Source: a virus
Virus record (IMG/VR): IMGVR_UViG_3300044617_000857
Span: 1 to 27,981 of that record
Length of the DNA: 27,981 bases
Direction: 5' to 3' (one strand)
Shown: one piece after another, positions 7,590 to 24,040 of the stretch
Numbering within the stretch: position 1 is the first letter of the stretch
How the letters are laid out: each line of letters starts with the position of its first letter
Program-made: the position numbers and the translations under genes
Notes under the pieces: model-generated
What the model was told of the DNA's origin: nothing
The model's database searches: none
What the model saw: only the letters and a program-made list of their open reading frames with translations

Positions 7590-8150
7590 ATGAAATACAG
7601 AAGAGATCACCCTATGCACGCAATATGGCGCGGAATGAAGCAGAGATGCAATAATCCCAATAGAAAAGATTACAAGTATTACGGAGCTTTGGGCATCAAG
7701 GTTTGTGATGAGTGGAATGCTTTTGAGGGATTTGTTAATTCATTTCCGCCAAGGCCGTCAAAACTTCACACCATTGAAAGAAAAGATTCAAGCAAGGGAT
7801 ACGACCCACAAAATTGTGTATGGGCAACAAGAAATGAGCAGGCTTACAACACATCGCATTGTAAGAAAATTGATGGGAAATCTTTGAGCGATTGGGCTAA
7901 GCAATTGGGGTTGAGTTTGGCGTGCCTTTCAGTTCGTTACGCAAAATACGGGCAGGCTTGCTTGGTTAATGGATTTAAACCAAATGGAATTAAATTTAAT
8001 GGGGAAAACAAAACGCTCAAAGAGTGGGCGTTGGAGCTTAACATTTCAGAAGTAGCATTAAAGAAAAGGATACAAAACTGGGGCTTGGAAAAAGCCCTAT
8101 CAACACAAAAATATGAAACCCGAATCGGAAACAAAAACAAATGTGGATAA
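7590..8150 (+). CDS. HNH homing endonuclease with C-terminal DNA-binding repeats
   Basis: The start is set at ATG 7590; a TTG six bases earlier is also possible. Residues 1-95 match a common phage HNH family: MHAIWRGMKQRCNNP, YYGALGIKVCDEW, FPPRP then HTIERKDSSKGYDPQNCVWA (catalytic His and Asn). Two helical repeats follow, each of the type K-(S/T)-L-x-x-W-A-x-x-L (KSLSDWAKQLGLS and KTLKEWALELNIS), likely for target recognition. Base composition is more AT-rich than the genes around it, as usual for mobile homing genes. Its last 38 bases contain the start of the methyltransferase at 8113. Confidence 0.8.
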   Translation: MKYRRDHPMHAIWRGMKQRCNNPNRKDYKYYGALGIKVCDEWNAFEGFVNSFPPRPSKLHTIERKDSSKGYDPQNCVWATRNEQAYNTSHCKKIDGKSLSDWAKQLGLSLACLSVRYAKYGQACLVNGFKPNGIKFNGENKTLKEWALELNISEVALKKRIQNWGLEKALSTQKYETRIGNKNKCG

Positions 8151-9780
8151 TACCATCACAACTCTTGAATTCTGCGCCGGATATGGCGGCATTGGACTTG
8201 GCCTCAAAAACATCTTTGGCGAACGACTGCGATGCCTCGCATATTGTGAGCTTGAGGGGTTCGCTCAAGCCAATCTCATCAGTAAAATGGAAAAAGGACT
8301 CTTGGATGTCGCACCTCTTTGGAACGATCTTAAGACCTTCCCTTACGGAAAATTTCACGGACTGGTGGACATCCTCATTGCAGGATACCCTTGCCAACCG
8401 TTCTCTGCCGCAGGAAAGCGAGCGGGTAAAGATGACCCAAGACACCTCTGGCCTTGGATCGCAGACGGAATTCGCCTTCTTCGACCAAGAGCCTGCTTCC
8501 TCGAAAATGTCGAAGGACACATTTCGTTGGGACTCTCCACAGTCGTTAGCGATCTGGAAGAGTTGGGTTACAAGGTGTCGTGGGGAATATTCTCTGCGAG
8601 TGAAGTCGGTGCGCCTCACCAGCGGAAGCGGGTCTTCATCTTGGCCTACCGCCAATGCGCGGGATTGGAAGGATGGAGATGCTGCTTGCAACCAGAGGGC
8701 AATAGATTCGGGACATCAAATGACATTGGCGAGGGCCGCGACTTGTTGGTCAACCCCATCAACAATGGCTGGAGCAATGTATCCAGAGGCGAATGCAATG
8801 AAACGCAACAGTCCTTCGTTAGCTTCTCAAGTTGTAATGTGGCCGACCCCACAAGCCAACGAGATAGAGAATCCCAACAAGGTTTACCGAAGTCCGACCA
8901 ATGCGTATCGGGGCAACAAGAAGGTTCAGCCGATGCTGGCAGATGTCTGCAAGCATGGCCCAGCCGCCCCGGCGAACCCCAGCACGGATGGGAGCCGCCC
9001 AGAGTTGTGGCGAACACCGTGCGAAAGGGATCACCATCCGAATGGACTGAACAGAACGAGGAATGTCCCGCAGATTTTGTTGAGCCACCAAGTGACCAAG
9101 CAATGGGCAACGCCGAGAGCAGGCAAGACCACGGACGAGAACCCCGAGACATGGGCGGCGAGGCAGGCCAAGGGCGATGTGGCGACCATGCCGCTGACGG
9201 CACAGGTGAAGATGTGGAGAACTCCGTCCGTAGCAGAGGAGAAGAACCAGAACACCTCGACGCAAATCTATCTACAGAACCAAGTGGGTGCGACTCCGAA
9301 GGCGTGGGCAACGCCACAAGCAAGCGACCATATCGAGGGAGCGAGGACGGAGCTAACCAGCAACCAGAAATGCTTGGGACGGGACATGAAGCAGTGGGCA
9401 ACGCCGATCATGGGCGACTCGCATCTGGCATCGACGCCGGAAGTGGCACAGAAGCGGATCGAGGAGGGCAAGGTGACATTGAGCAGGCAGACGGCGGCTT
9501 GGGCGACGCCGCAACTTCAAGACGGCCACAACATCAACCAAGATTCAACGACCCACAAAACGATTCCAGCGCAACTGACCAAAATGAACATGTCGGGCAA
9601 GCTCAACCCGCGCTGGGTCGAGACGCTGATGGGACTGCCGGTGGGCTGGGTTATGCCGAGTTGTGCGTCTCCTGTGACAACCGAACCGACGAACTCCGGC
9701 TCTTGGGAAATGGGGTTTGTCCCCCAACAGCAACAAAAGCATTTATAACACTATACAAAGAATTATTTAAATATGAGTAA
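8113..9780 (+). CDS. Cytosine-5 DNA methyltransferase with repeat-rich variable region
   Basis: A 555-residue enzyme that moves a methyl group from SAM to cytosine C5. Motifs in order: I FCAGYGGIGLGL (20-31), IV GYPC94QPFSAAGKRAG with the catalytic Cys, VI ENV (131-133), VIII HQRKR (169-173) and IX/X LLGNGVCPPTA near 530. The region between VIII and IX, usually the target-recognition domain, is about 350 residues, poor in hydrophobics and built from repeats of the type (V/L/M)-(G/A)-(N/D)-x: VADPTSQR, VANTVRKG, MGNAESRQ, VGNATSKR, VGNADHGR, LGDAATSR. These sit on W-x-T-P codons in the +1 frame. The ATG follows an AACACAAAAAT leader inside the HNH gene. Confidence 0.85.
   Translation: MKPESETKTNVDNTITTLEFCAGYGGIGLGLKNIFGERLRCLAYCELEGFAQANLISKMEKGLLDVAPLWNDLKTFPYGKFHGLVDILIAGYPCQPFSAAGKRAGKDDPRHLWPWIADGIRLLRPRACFLENVEGHISLGLSTVVSDLEELGYKVSWGIFSASEVGAPHQRKRVFILAYRQCAGLEGWRCCLQPEGNRFGTSNDIGEGRDLLVNPINNGWSNVSRGECNETQQSFVSFSSCNVADPTSQRDRESQQGLPKSDQCVSGQQEGSADAGRCLQAWPSRPGEPQHGWEPPRVVANTVRKGSPSEWTEQNEECPADFVEPPSDQAMGNAESRQDHGREPRDMGGEAGQGRCGDHAADGTGEDVENSVRSRGEEPEHLDANLSTEPSGCDSEGVGNATSKRPYRGSEDGANQQPEMLGTGHEAVGNADHGRLASGIDAGSGTEADRGGQGDIEQADGGLGDAATSRRPQHQPRFNDPQNDSSATDQNEHVGQAQPALGRDADGTAGGLGYAELCVSCDNRTDELRLLGNGVCPPTATKAFITLYKELFKYE
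8141..9748 (+). CDS. Overprinted W-x-T-P repeat protein in the +1 frame of the methyltransferase
   Basis: This frame lies wholly inside the methyltransferase gene and stays open for up to 535 codons. From about residue 125 it holds nine or so modules that start with W-(A/P/R/S)-T-P and run 30-45 residues to a L-x-x-Q-x end: SWPTANARDW, MWPTPQANE, LWRTPCERD, QWATPRAGK, MWRTPSVAE, AWATPQASD, QWATPIMGD, AWATPQLQD. It ends in LNPRWVETLMGLPVGW. I recognise that ending and the modules from phage proteins often labelled as methyltransferase-associated. The upstream part (TMTQDTSG-like, FAFFDQEPASSKMS, YSLRVKSVRL) also fits that family. The true start is unknown; later ATGs lie at 8306 and 8432. Confidence 0.6.
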   Translation: MWIIPSQLLNSAPDMAALDLASKTSLANDCDASHIVSLRGSLKPISSVKWKKDSWMSHLFGTILRPSLTENFTDWWTSSLQDTLANRSLPQESERVKMTQDTSGLGSQTEFAFFDQEPASSKMSKDTFRWDSPQSLAIWKSWVTRCRGEYSLRVKSVRLTSGSGSSSWPTANARDWKDGDAACNQRAIDSGHQMTLARAATCWSTPSTMAGAMYPEANAMKRNSPSLASQVVMWPTPQANEIENPNKVYRSPTNAYRGNKKVQPMLADVCKHGPAAPANPSTDGSRPELWRTPCERDHHPNGLNRTRNVPQILLSHQVTKQWATPRAGKTTDENPETWAARQAKGDVATMPLTAQVKMWRTPSVAEEKNQNTSTQIYLQNQVGATPKAWATPQASDHIEGARTELTSNQKCLGRDMKQWATPIMGDSHLASTPEVAQKRIEEGKVTLSRQTAAWATPQLQDGHNINQDSTTHKTIPAQLTKMNMSGKLNPRWVETLMGLPVGWVMPSCASPVTTEPTNSGSWEMGFVPQQQQKHL

Positions 9781-10255
9781 AATAATTACACTTAATAACG
9801 GAATGGAGTGCATCGTTGATGATGAATTATATCCAATTTTATCACGCTGGAAGTGGAAGTTTTTAAAAGCAACCGGATGCTCTGGCGGATATGCGGTAAG
9901 AAACACGATCAAGAATGGAAAAAATTTCGCTATCTTGATGCATAGAAAAATTAATAATACTCCAAACGGCCTGTCCACGGATCATATCAATGGCAATAAG
10001 TTAGATAATAGAAGATCAAATTTGAGATCAGTTCCTCAATATATAAATATGCAGAATCGAGACAAACAAAAGAACAACAAGTCTGGGTTTAAGGGGGTTT
10101 TCTTTGATAAGTGTCGGAATAAATATGTCGCATCAATTGTCATAAATGGGAAAACTGTTTTTAGAAAAAGGTTTCAAACCTTAAATGAGGCAGCTGAAGC
10201 GAGATTGAGTTTTATGTCGTGCCTGCAACAGCAGAAAGAGCTTTTCGAGTGCTAA
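9773..10255 (+). CDS. HNH endonuclease with AP2 DNA-binding domain
   Basis: A 160-residue protein with an N-terminal domain (ITLNNGMECIVDDELYPIL), an HNH motif in LMHRKI and DHINGNKLDNRRSNLR with the Asp-His and Asn residues of HNH_3, and a C-terminal AP2-like domain from KSGFKGVFFDKCRNKYVA to RKRFQTLNEAAEARL. This is a standard phage homing endonuclease type. Its ATG overlaps the methyltransferase stop. It is AT-rich compared with its neighbours, which supports recent entry. With the gene at 7590 it brackets the methyltransferase. Confidence 0.85.
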   Translation: MSKIITLNNGMECIVDDELYPILSRWKWKFLKATGCSGGYAVRNTIKNGKNFAILMHRKINNTPNGLSTDHINGNKLDNRRSNLRSVPQYINMQNRDKQKNNKSGFKGVFFDKCRNKYVASIVINGKTVFRKRFQTLNEAAEARLSFMSCLQQQKELFEC

Positions 10256-10277: not shown

Positions 10278-10472
10278 ATGAACCGCATTCTAGACATCCT
10301 CATCCAGCAGAACGACGATCTGCAAGAAGCCCTCTCCGATGCGCTGAACAACCGCGATGCTTGGAAAGAATGCGCGGAGGCTTTCTTTATGTGCGCAGGG
10401 AAGGATAAGACCGCAAGCTGGGATCAGTTTGAGAAGGCGGCTACGCTGTATCAGCAACTCAAGTCTTGTTGA
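10278..10472 (+). CDS. Small helical protein with RDAWKEC motif
   Basis: Sixty-four residues, mostly helix. NNRDAWKECAEAFFMCAG resembles RDEWRECCERLICCA in the gene at 25132 on the other arm, so the two may be distant relatives. GGAGGA lies 16-21 bases before the start. The stop codon TGA lies inside a TTGTTGAACAA palindrome. No function known. Confidence 0.55.
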   Translation: MNRILDILIQQNDDLQEALSDALNNRDAWKECAEAFFMCAGKDKTASWDQFEKAATLYQQLKSC

Positions 10473-10479
10473 ACAATAA
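10466..10479. promoter_or_regulatory. Dispersed palindrome on the stop of the RDAWKEC gene
   Basis: TTGTTGAACAATAA overlaps the TGA stop codon at 10470-10472 and directly precedes a string of hairpins. The same sequence ends the related gene at 25132. Confidence 0.5.
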
Positions 10480-10490
10480 ATAAATCTTGA

Positions 10491-10660
10491 ACCCTACACT
10501 CACGAAGTGTAGGGTGGTGTCGCTGTAGAGATATAGCCTCGGGGTGAGAGCCGAGTAAAGGAAGTGGCTTAAATTAACAATAAAATATATGATCCCTTTG
10601 TGGTGGTAAACCACTCTCATGCGTCTGTTGCCGCACTGCTTCCGCTGCCACAAAGGGGTC
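10491..10660 (+). ncRNA. Structured leader RNA candidate (four hairpins)
   Basis: No gene lies between 10473 and 10673, but four stems follow one another: 10491-10515 (10 bp, ACCCTACACT/AGTGTAGGGT), 10522-10537 (6 bp closed by a GAGA tetraloop of the GNRA type), 10538-10555 (5 bp, CTCGG/CCGAG) and 10591-10660 (13 bp, GATCCCTTTGTGG/CCACAAAGGGGTC with one G-T pair and an inner GTGGT/ACCAC stem). GCCTTTTG follows the last stem, then the ATG at 10674. It could be an attenuator, riboswitch-like leader or small RNA. I do not recognise a known class. Confidence 0.55.
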
Positions 10661-10673
10661 GCCTTTTGTAAAA

Positions 10674-10955
10674 ATGAATCCATTAGAAAAAAACGGAGGC
10701 ATCTTCGTTCGTAGTGCAATCTTAAAATTGACCATCCTAGATGATAGGAAGAAACAAGTATTCGCCGTCATTGATAATTACGATGGCGGGTTTGACGATA
10801 AAGATATCCAATCTGTCGCCGACACAATTGGCATCACGGAAATGCAGGCACAGAATGCATTTATGACGCTGGTTGGACTTCGGTTTTTGAAACTCAACAA
10901 GGACAAGAAGTGGGTGCTGAATGAAGATGCGAATTGGATGGAGGGGTCGTTATGA
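10674..10955 (+). CDS. Small protein before the replication organizer, HTH-like
   Basis: Ninety-three residues: an N-terminal strand-rich part (GIFVRSAILKLTILDDRKKQ) and a helical part IQSVADTIGITEMQAQNAFMTLVGLRFL that reads as a helix-turn-helix followed by a wing (KLNKDKKWVLNED). It directly follows the hairpin leader and overlaps the replication gene by ATGA. It may regulate or assist that gene. No SD is visible; the nearest AAAGGGG is buried in the last stem. Confidence 0.55.
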   Translation: MNPLEKNGGIFVRSAILKLTILDDRKKQVFAVIDNYDGGFDDKDIQSVADTIGITEMQAQNAFMTLVGLRFLKLNKDKKWVLNEDANWMEGSL

Positions 10956-12806: not shown

Positions 12807-13555
12807 ACGAAGGAGGACATTGGTATGACAAAAACGGCAATGCCTGCCACACGATAGTCGGCAAGAACGGCAAGATTCGCAAGACAACGCTGCGTGATGC
12901 ACGCTCTGAAAATTGGTTCCCAAGTGTTACTACCGTAATGAAAGTGTTGGCCGCACCGGAACTGGATCGCTGGAAACAACAGCAAGTCCTGCTAGCCTCA
13001 CTCACCCTCCCACGGCAAGACATGGAGAGCGATGAGGACTATTGCTCCCGCATTTTGCAGGACGCATTCAAGCAGGTGGACGATGCAGCCGACTTGGGAA
13101 CGAACATTCACGCCGCACTAGAGAACCACTTCCAAGGCAAGCCATACGACCCCGCGATGGAAAGCTATGTCGCACCTGTGAAGAAGTGGGCTGAACACAA
13201 TAGAGTAACCTTCCTACAGCACGAACTGCGGTTAGTGTCGCGTGAAGTTGGCTATGCCGGAACGACGGACGCCTTGATTGAGAAGGATGGAGTGCTTCAT
13301 GTGTTGGATTTCAAAAGCCGGAAGACCCGCCCCGACTACGACATTACGCCTTGGGCAAAAGAACCGATGCAAATCTCTGCCTACGCAAAAATCGTCGGCG
13401 CACCGAGAGGAGTGAATGTCTACATCTCAACTACAGAGCCGGGCCGTATCGGCGAGGCTTGGTATGACGAGGCTACCTTGGACAAGGAATACGAAGCCTT
13501 TAAGCATGTCGTAGCTCTTTGGCAGCACCAGAACAAATACATCCCCGCGAAATAA
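12803..13555 (+). CDS. PD-(D/E)XK exonuclease, RecB/Cas4-like
   Basis: The ATG at 12803 overlaps the previous stop as ATGA. In the 250-residue protein, GTNIHAALE (H103), YAGTTD156ALIE and HVLD169FK171SRK followed by Q190ISAY form the RecB-like PD-(D/E)XK nuclease core, with Asp156, Asp169 and Lys171 as catalytic residues and Gln190 of motif QxxxY. It would resect DNA ends to give single strands for the annealing protein encoded two genes later, making a phage recombination pair. FPSVTTVMKVLAAPEL near the N terminus is typical of this family. Confidence 0.8.
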   Translation: MNEGGHWYDKNGNACHTIVGKNGKIRKTTLRDARSENWFPSVTTVMKVLAAPELDRWKQQQVLLASLTLPRQDMESDEDYCSRILQDAFKQVDDAADLGTNIHAALENHFQGKPYDPAMESYVAPVKKWAEHNRVTFLQHELRLVSREVGYAGTTDALIEKDGVLHVLDFKSRKTRPDYDITPWAKEPMQISAYAKIVGAPRGVNVYISTTEPGRIGEAWYDEATLDKEYEAFKHVVALWQHQNKYIPAK

Positions 13556-23088: not shown

Positions 23089-23524
23089 CTTGTGAGGGAG
23101 AGAGGGGAATGCAATGGATAGGTGAGTTTTCATTATTTAATGAAAGGAATGAAAGGAATGGACGGCAATGCAATTCGTGGGAACGCAATTGCAATCCCGC
23201 TCCCGCTTTGCAATTTGTCGCCGCTCGCCTACTTTCCAGCTTGTGACCTATCGCCAACAATCCTGCATTTCATTCCCTTGTCCCTTTTCAGCACAGGTTG
23301 AAAGCATCTAACTCCCTGAAGCCCCGTAGAATCGTCCGCTTTTCCGGTGCTATCATACCATTGCTTTTAATCTAGGCGCAGTTTTAAACAGTTCAACGCA
23401 AGCCGTGTCCACTATCTACTTGTGCGTTTATCGGAAGTTATCAAACCGCATGCTGATCATCAACAGGTTGTGATAGCACATCGATGGGGCAAGCGGTCAG
23501 TCTCAACAGTGCGGCCCCACTAAT

Positions 23525-23710
23525 GAGAATGAGCCGAGCCGACAGCGACAGCAACGGCGACAGGCGGCGACAGCGTAGAGCGGAGGGAGCGGAGAGCGGA
23601 GAGCGTGTCCCTCACTAGGTGCGGCGGCGGAGGGAGAGCGTAGCGGCGGCGGTAGCGTAGCGGCGTGGAGCGTGGTGGCGGCAGGGGTGGTAGGGGGTGG
23701 GGGGAGTTGC
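23525..23710. repeat. GC-rich low-complexity tract
   Basis: Imperfect GCGGAG, GCGTAGCGGC, GCGACAG and GGTGG units run for about 185 bp. It ends in GGGGTGGTAGGGGGTGGGGGG (23684-23704), a G-run that could form a quadruplex on the plus strand. Reading frames through it are artefacts of composition. Confidence 0.6.
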
Positions 23711-23751
23711 GCGTGTGTCCATGGCGTAAAACAGACCCTACCAAAAACTAA

Positions 23752-23767
23752 AATTTAAATTTAAATT
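23752..23767. repeat. Perfect AT palindrome AATTTAAATTTAAATT
   Basis: A 16-base perfect palindrome made only of A and T, followed by ATTAAAAATCCCC. It lies about 40 bp from the G-rich tract and could be an unwinding element. Confidence 0.5.
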
Positions 23768-24040
23768 AAAAATCCCCTTTCTCCCCTATTTTACCCCTAT
23801 CCTATTTTCGTTCTTTGAGTTGCTGTTTTATTTGCTGTTAGAATATCGGCTTATCCGAGGTGATTTATCCCTTATTAAACTTACTCATGCTGCATTGCTT
23901 TGGTTTGCATGTATCCCTGCTTTTCTTTAATTGCCCTGTATCGCGTTTTCTGGGGTTGGAATGTCTCCTTGCCCTCCTTGCGGGATGTAATGCGTTTTAA
24001 CGGGCTTCTAGCGCGAAGGAATGGCTCTCCTGACTGTTGG

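Follow-up and report, generated by a model that had tools for sequence, protein, structure and literature searches.

The 5' untranslated region in front of the replication genes of an uncultured virus was found to be occupied by what is, with near certainty, a real and conserved pseudoknotted RNA, and comparison of related sequences suggests that this leader most likely controls expression of the next gene. The DNA analysed, referred to below as the window, is the whole 27,981-base record IMGVR_UViG_3300044617_000857. The RNA proper extends from 10522 to 10676, about 155 nt, and forms one compact domain with two pseudoknotted helices; it is present in about 100 uncultured phage contigs, represented by 71 distinct sequences. 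On its 5' side lie an HNH/AP2 endonuclease gene (9773-10255) and an ORF of 64 aa, and on its 3' side the gene for a protein of 93 aa, after which the replication-initiator gene begins at 10952. No similarity of the window DNA to sequenced phages, plasmids, or GTDB genomes was detected at the sensitivity used, and a scan of GTDB with terminase profiles likewise revealed no host. The features of the leader region are as follows.

10487-10515, plus strand: predicted sigma-70-like promoter, -35 TTGAAC (10487-10492), 17-nt spacer, -10 TAGGGT (10510-10515); arrangement common to the relatives
10491-10515, no strand: 25-bp palindrome ACCCTACACT-cacga-AGTGTAGGGT over the promoter; single copy in the window
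10522-10537, plus strand: P1, 6-bp hairpin closed by a GAGA tetraloop of the GNRA type, with which the transcript is predicted to begin; 96% of cells paired
10538-10555, plus strand: P2, hairpin CTCGG/CCGAG with loop GGTGAGAG; 93% of cells paired
10544-10550, plus strand: strand a in the P2 loop, partner a'; 7-8 bp in every sequence
10560-10567, plus strand: strand b, partner b'; see the b:b' permutation test below
10569-10578, plus strand: single-stranded joining strand after b, conserved UUAAAUUAAC; UAAAU near-invariant in all relatives
10591-10606, plus strand: 5' strand of P3; 98% of cells paired, two-sided changes in 14 of 15 pairs
10614-10620, plus strand: strand a' within P3, pairs with the P2 loop
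10621-10634, plus strand: P4, small hairpin GCG-ucuguugc-CGC between a' and b'; 100% of cells paired
10636-10643, plus strand: strand b' within P3, pairs with 10560-10567
10645-10660, plus strand: 3' strand of P3; its SD-like AAAGGGG is not kept by the relatives
10661-10673, plus strand: spacer between P3 and AUG, invariant GCC followed by U-rich/A-rich sequence; length between 11 and 16 nt in every one of the 71 distinct elements
10674-10955, plus strand: gene for the 93-aa protein, with which the replication operon opens

Two other parts of the window are unusual. The ORF for a cytosine methyltransferase (8113-9780, 555 aa) is overlapped almost completely by an ORF of 535 aa in another frame (8141-9748), in which W-x-T-P motifs are repeated. 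A region of about 600 bases (23301-23900) is almost devoid of ORFs of at least 50 aa on the plus strand and has one weak ORF on the minus strand.

Identification of related leaders

Among viral contigs, 23 encode relatives of the 93-aa protein with 79-90% identity, and their leaders showed the same architecture as that of the window. Further loci were fetched by searches with short P2 sequences, yielding 103 loci with 71 distinct elements. Since these later loci were picked by P2, this hairpin and strand a are partly fixed by the sampling and less free to vary; P1, b, b', P3, and P4 are free of this bias. One locus (L081) contained only an exact 19-mer without the element and was discarded as a chance match. 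A covariance model built from the element scored 125 bits for the window; of 58 other records searched with it, 56 contained a single copy. Three weak matches of the model were treated as not real: L046 2166-2311 (E 0.28), G038 13221-13307 (E 0.34), and L117 3356-3477 (20.7 bits), the last of which lies on a terminator-like hairpin. At L046 2166-2446, on the minus strand, a major-capsid-like gene is preceded by the operator palindrome TTATCGNNNNCGATAA (see below), and the match of E 0.28 found there is probably due to chance.

Structure and covariation of the RNA

The initial annotation had described a string of four hairpins. All the stems do exist: a 10-bp stem (10491-10500/10506-10515), a 6-bp GAGA hairpin (10522-10537) directly adjoining a 5-bp stem (10538-10542/10551-10555), and a 13-bp stem (10591-10603/10648-10660) with an inner helix, followed by GCCTTTTG and the ATG at 10674. 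They are not independent of each other, however; the 10-bp stem is promoter DNA and the remainder is a single pseudoknotted domain. P3, which comprises 13-16 bp, encloses a', P4, and b', and from the order of the strands, a, b, a', b', it follows that the two helices a:a' and b:b' cross each other and also P3. In folding energy the region surpassed all of 200 dinucleotide shuffles (z -3.1), although for the window leader by itself, a single phage, the folding z was only -1.8; the comparison with relatives was decisive.

The stems of this RNA domain are conserved in related phages and covary strongly, the opposite of what would have spoken against a structured RNA. In an alignment of 46 sequences, 94.3% of cells were paired, compared to 40-50% when the partners were slid, and two-sided changes occurred in 37 of 45 pairs. 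None of 500 shuffles scored as high as the real alignment on any of the five covariation measures, and RNAalifold recovered P1, P2, P3, and P4 unaided. Two-sided changes affect five of the six pairs of P1, the loop of which is GAAA, GCAA, GAGA, or GGAA in nearly all relatives. P2 consists of 5-6 bp with a loop of 8-9 nt forming strand a, and a and a' vary together (GUGAGAG/CUCUCA, GUGAAGG/CCUUCA, GUAGGAG/CUCCUA, GUGAAGAA/UUCUUCAC, GUGAAACC/GGUUUCAC). In P4, 3-4 bp long, compensatory switches lead from GCG/CGC to CUG/CAG and CCG/CGG. For the b:b' helix, usually 7-9 bp, 27 different b' sequences were found among the relatives; pairing with the own partner reached 361, whereas permuted partners gave 247.5 +- 10.9 with a maximum of 287 in 2000 permutations.

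Outside the b helix, 175 G.U cells were counted versus six A.C cells. This excess indicates that the selected molecule is the sense-strand RNA. A minus-strand ORF of 86 aa (10459-10719) was rejected as coding, because indels in the relatives break any frame and the G.U pairs point to sense RNA; a promoter scan of this region of the window revealed no antisense promoter. As the initial annotation had supposed, no known riboswitch or ribozyme is recognisable: Rfam 15 contained no family matching the window at the gathering score, nine relatives yielded one tRNA only, and a permissive search produced nothing but chance-level matches.

Promoter and palindromes

Each of the 71 distinct elements is preceded by TTGnnn-N16-18-TAnnnT, the last base of which lies 3-7 nt away from the element; at random sites the chance of such a match is 0.25%. 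The predicted transcription start therefore coincides with the first base of P1. The 10-bp stem falls outside the RNA because it spans the -35 and -10 regions, and in relatives the same place is taken by promoter sequence without this stem. Lying across the promoter, the 25-bp palindrome of the window is most likely an operator and probably a site for a repressor; in relatives, a gene for an XRE-type repressor is located divergently upstream.

Another palindrome, TTATCGNNNNCGATAA, occurs in one to six copies per locus in 107 of 152 loci, for example at 163, 2934, 10345, 11877, 13561, and 15751 in L107. In most loci one copy is found shortly upstream of the RNA promoter. These palindromes look like dispersed repressor sites of the stoperator kind.

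Boundaries of the element and downstream genes

The whole 5' UTR is taken up by the element, which begins at the predicted transcription start and leaves 11-16 nt free in front of the AUG. This distance was kept in 71 of 71 distinct elements and amounts to 11-13 nt in 65 of them. The genes behind it are diverse. First genes belong to at least six families, forming six sequence groups at E<1e-8, most of which match different families of phage replication initiators or helicase loaders; two groups of proteins of about 90 aa have no clear match. Different genes have thus been attached to the element, the junction being precisely the AUG. In L083, where a standard element occupies 1333-1493 on the minus strand, the gene directly behind it encodes an HNH endonuclease and takes the usual place of the replication gene.

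A second, strongly diverged copy is present in two records and also in a third phage, L117 (47 bits). Each of the three precedes directly a related HNH/endonuclease VII-like gene, and these units have their own TTGACC/TTGACA promoter and are followed immediately by a convergent gene and a terminator-like sequence. Although their sequences are new, the diverged copies can still form a:a', b:b', P3, and P4; since P1 is missing in that of L117, it is not essential to the fold.

Two further interpretations of the region were rejected. P3 is not an intrinsic terminator, because 3-4 nt separate the stem from the U residues and several members have no U tract. A conserved upstream ORF was not found, as the frames differ among the elements; reading from the AUG at the foot of P3 gives an open, in-frame sequence in no more than 14 of the 71.

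Shine-Dalgarno sequences

Translational control had originally been suggested because the SD-like AAAGGGG near the next gene lies within the last stem. This sequence is replaced in relatives along with the covariation of P3 (AAGUGACC, AAGCAGCC, GGAAGGUC, and others). Start codons of 284 long ORFs in these contigs, taken mechanically as the first ATG of each, showed no SD enrichment; strong sites were not more common, and the median pairing energy with the 16S tail was +0.1 kcal/mol versus -2.8 at internal control sites. With no SD enrichment and no conservation of AAAGGGG, the argument of a hidden SD fails, and a leader sequestering a functional SD in its stem was rejected. Hosts poor in SD sequences are known among Bacteroidota and some Verrucomicrobiota (PMC10783764). 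Control of translation as such is still the leading idea, but its basis is now the fit between promoter and AUG, the fixed spacing, and the exchangeable genes.

Possible functions of the leader

The ends of the element are fixed to promoter and AUG, it is portable, and it also occurs in single-gene units; together these properties argue for an effect in cis on the following ORF at the level of the mRNA. We consider it somewhat probable, on comparative grounds, that the leader determines how efficiently translation of the next ORF is initiated or how stable its mRNA is. Transcription would begin at the sigma-70-like, repressor-controlled promoter. P1 and P2 could fold at once from the 5' end of the RNA, followed by P3 and P4, and strands a and b would then lock into the interior of P3 as the two pseudoknotted helices. 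With the fold stopping 11-16 nt before the AUG, only the short U/A-rich start region would be left free. The folded leader would act in cis on the mRNA, on the rate of translation start or on the life of the following ORF, possibly as a rigid fold at the mRNA exit side of the ribosome in a host without SD pairing, and perhaps modulated by a protein or ligand. Control of translation initiation is most likely the form taken, with protection of the mRNA as part of it or as an alternative; the constant distance between P3 and AUG could instead serve such protection or be inherited among related phages. The comparison establishes the structure, the sense strand as the RNA that is selected, the boundaries, and the exchange of downstream genes; that the leader acts on translation or stability, in whichever direction and with whatever ligand, is our inference.

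The fold might instead sense a metabolite or a phage or host protein and switch translation of the next ORF, as a riboswitch or protein-binding operator. The compact double pseudoknot and the near-invariant unpaired bases (UAAAU, AUAU before P3, GCC after P3, the P4 loop) would fit, but neither a conserved alternative structure nor a terminator was seen, no metabolic theme is common to the genes that follow, and Rfam provided no match; this possibility appears unlikely.

Rather more doubtful is antitermination of the put type, in which the nascent leader binds RNA polymerase and enables it to pass the terminators within the early operon. The put RNA of phage HK022 is located at the start of early phage transcripts and needs no trans protein in its own phage; it consists of two stem-loops of about 70 nt and exists in two copies, at both early promoters (PMC9378689). 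The position of the element at the start of an early, repressor-controlled transcript is like that of putL (PMC9378689). Its size and architecture, about 155 nt with two pseudoknotted helices, differ from put, the structural features of which were not found; there is one copy per record, and put has no tie to an AUG such as the element has. Moreover, the HNH genes behind the diverged copies are immediately followed by a convergent gene and a terminator-like sequence, leaving nothing to be read through, which disfavours this explanation.

A bacterial counterpart of an internal-entry element, that is, a pseudoknotted RNA recruiting or positioning the ribosome without an SD and serving as a portable module before any gene, is a still more speculative reading of the same comparisons. 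It is very unlikely that the element is a small RNA or decoy acting in trans, with an end that just happens to lie close to the first gene: an own promoter, the 5' GNRA hairpin, and the stable fold would suit it, but a conserved terminator is missing (L002, L083, and L087 have no U tract) and the element is always fused to the AUG at a fixed distance. Least probable of all is a replication origin or recombination boundary with the hairpins acting as single-stranded DNA, for although the element lies before replication genes and modules are exchanged exactly at its end, the G.U excess marks a plus-strand RNA, the loops are GNRA, and copies also precede HNH genes elsewhere in the genome.

Relation to known leader RNAs

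A conserved sense-strand structure between promoter and ORF, as found here, is characteristic of structured phage 5' UTR leaders. The cyanophage manA and wcaG motifs are such phage-borne 5' UTR RNAs with a putative ligand (PMC2864571). The element differs from both in sequence and fold, and their separate Rfam families gave no match.

In E. coli, the alpha operon (S4) and rpsO (S15), and likewise T4 gene 32, have leaders with a pseudoknot close to the start codon, through which translation is controlled by binding of a product of the same operon. Compared by description, the element is unlike them in that the first gene varies while the RNA stays. The HEARO or omega RNA of IscB likewise contains a pseudoknot and immediately precedes an HNH nuclease gene, a position shared by some copies of the element. 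However, the downstream genes are mostly replication initiators and no guide segment was seen, and neither an Rfam match nor a RuvC/HNH IscB gene downstream was found.

Similar in position is the repZ leader of the IncI/IncB plasmid ColIb-P9, in which the loop of an upstream hairpin forms a pseudoknot with a stem just before the replication-initiator gene (Asano & Mizobuchi 1998, as cited in PMC10724649). The element, too, is a pseudoknot upstream of a replication-initiator gene. Control of repZ involves translation of a leader peptide, an antisense RNA, and an SD, all of them required, whereas the element has no conserved upstream ORF, no SD use was detected, and many different genes follow it.

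A limited literature search revealed no description of the element. Structured phage leaders are a known kind of RNA; the fold and the use of this one are new within that kind. It represents a class of RNA not described before, the covariation of which equals that of accepted families in strength, occupying the complete 5' UTR of a replication operon and exchanged between genes as a unit. If the leader drives or gates translation, it would show how phage early genes can be controlled without SD pairing and would provide an expression element that is both compact and portable. Should it respond to a signal, it would be a sensor for lysis/lysogeny or growth.
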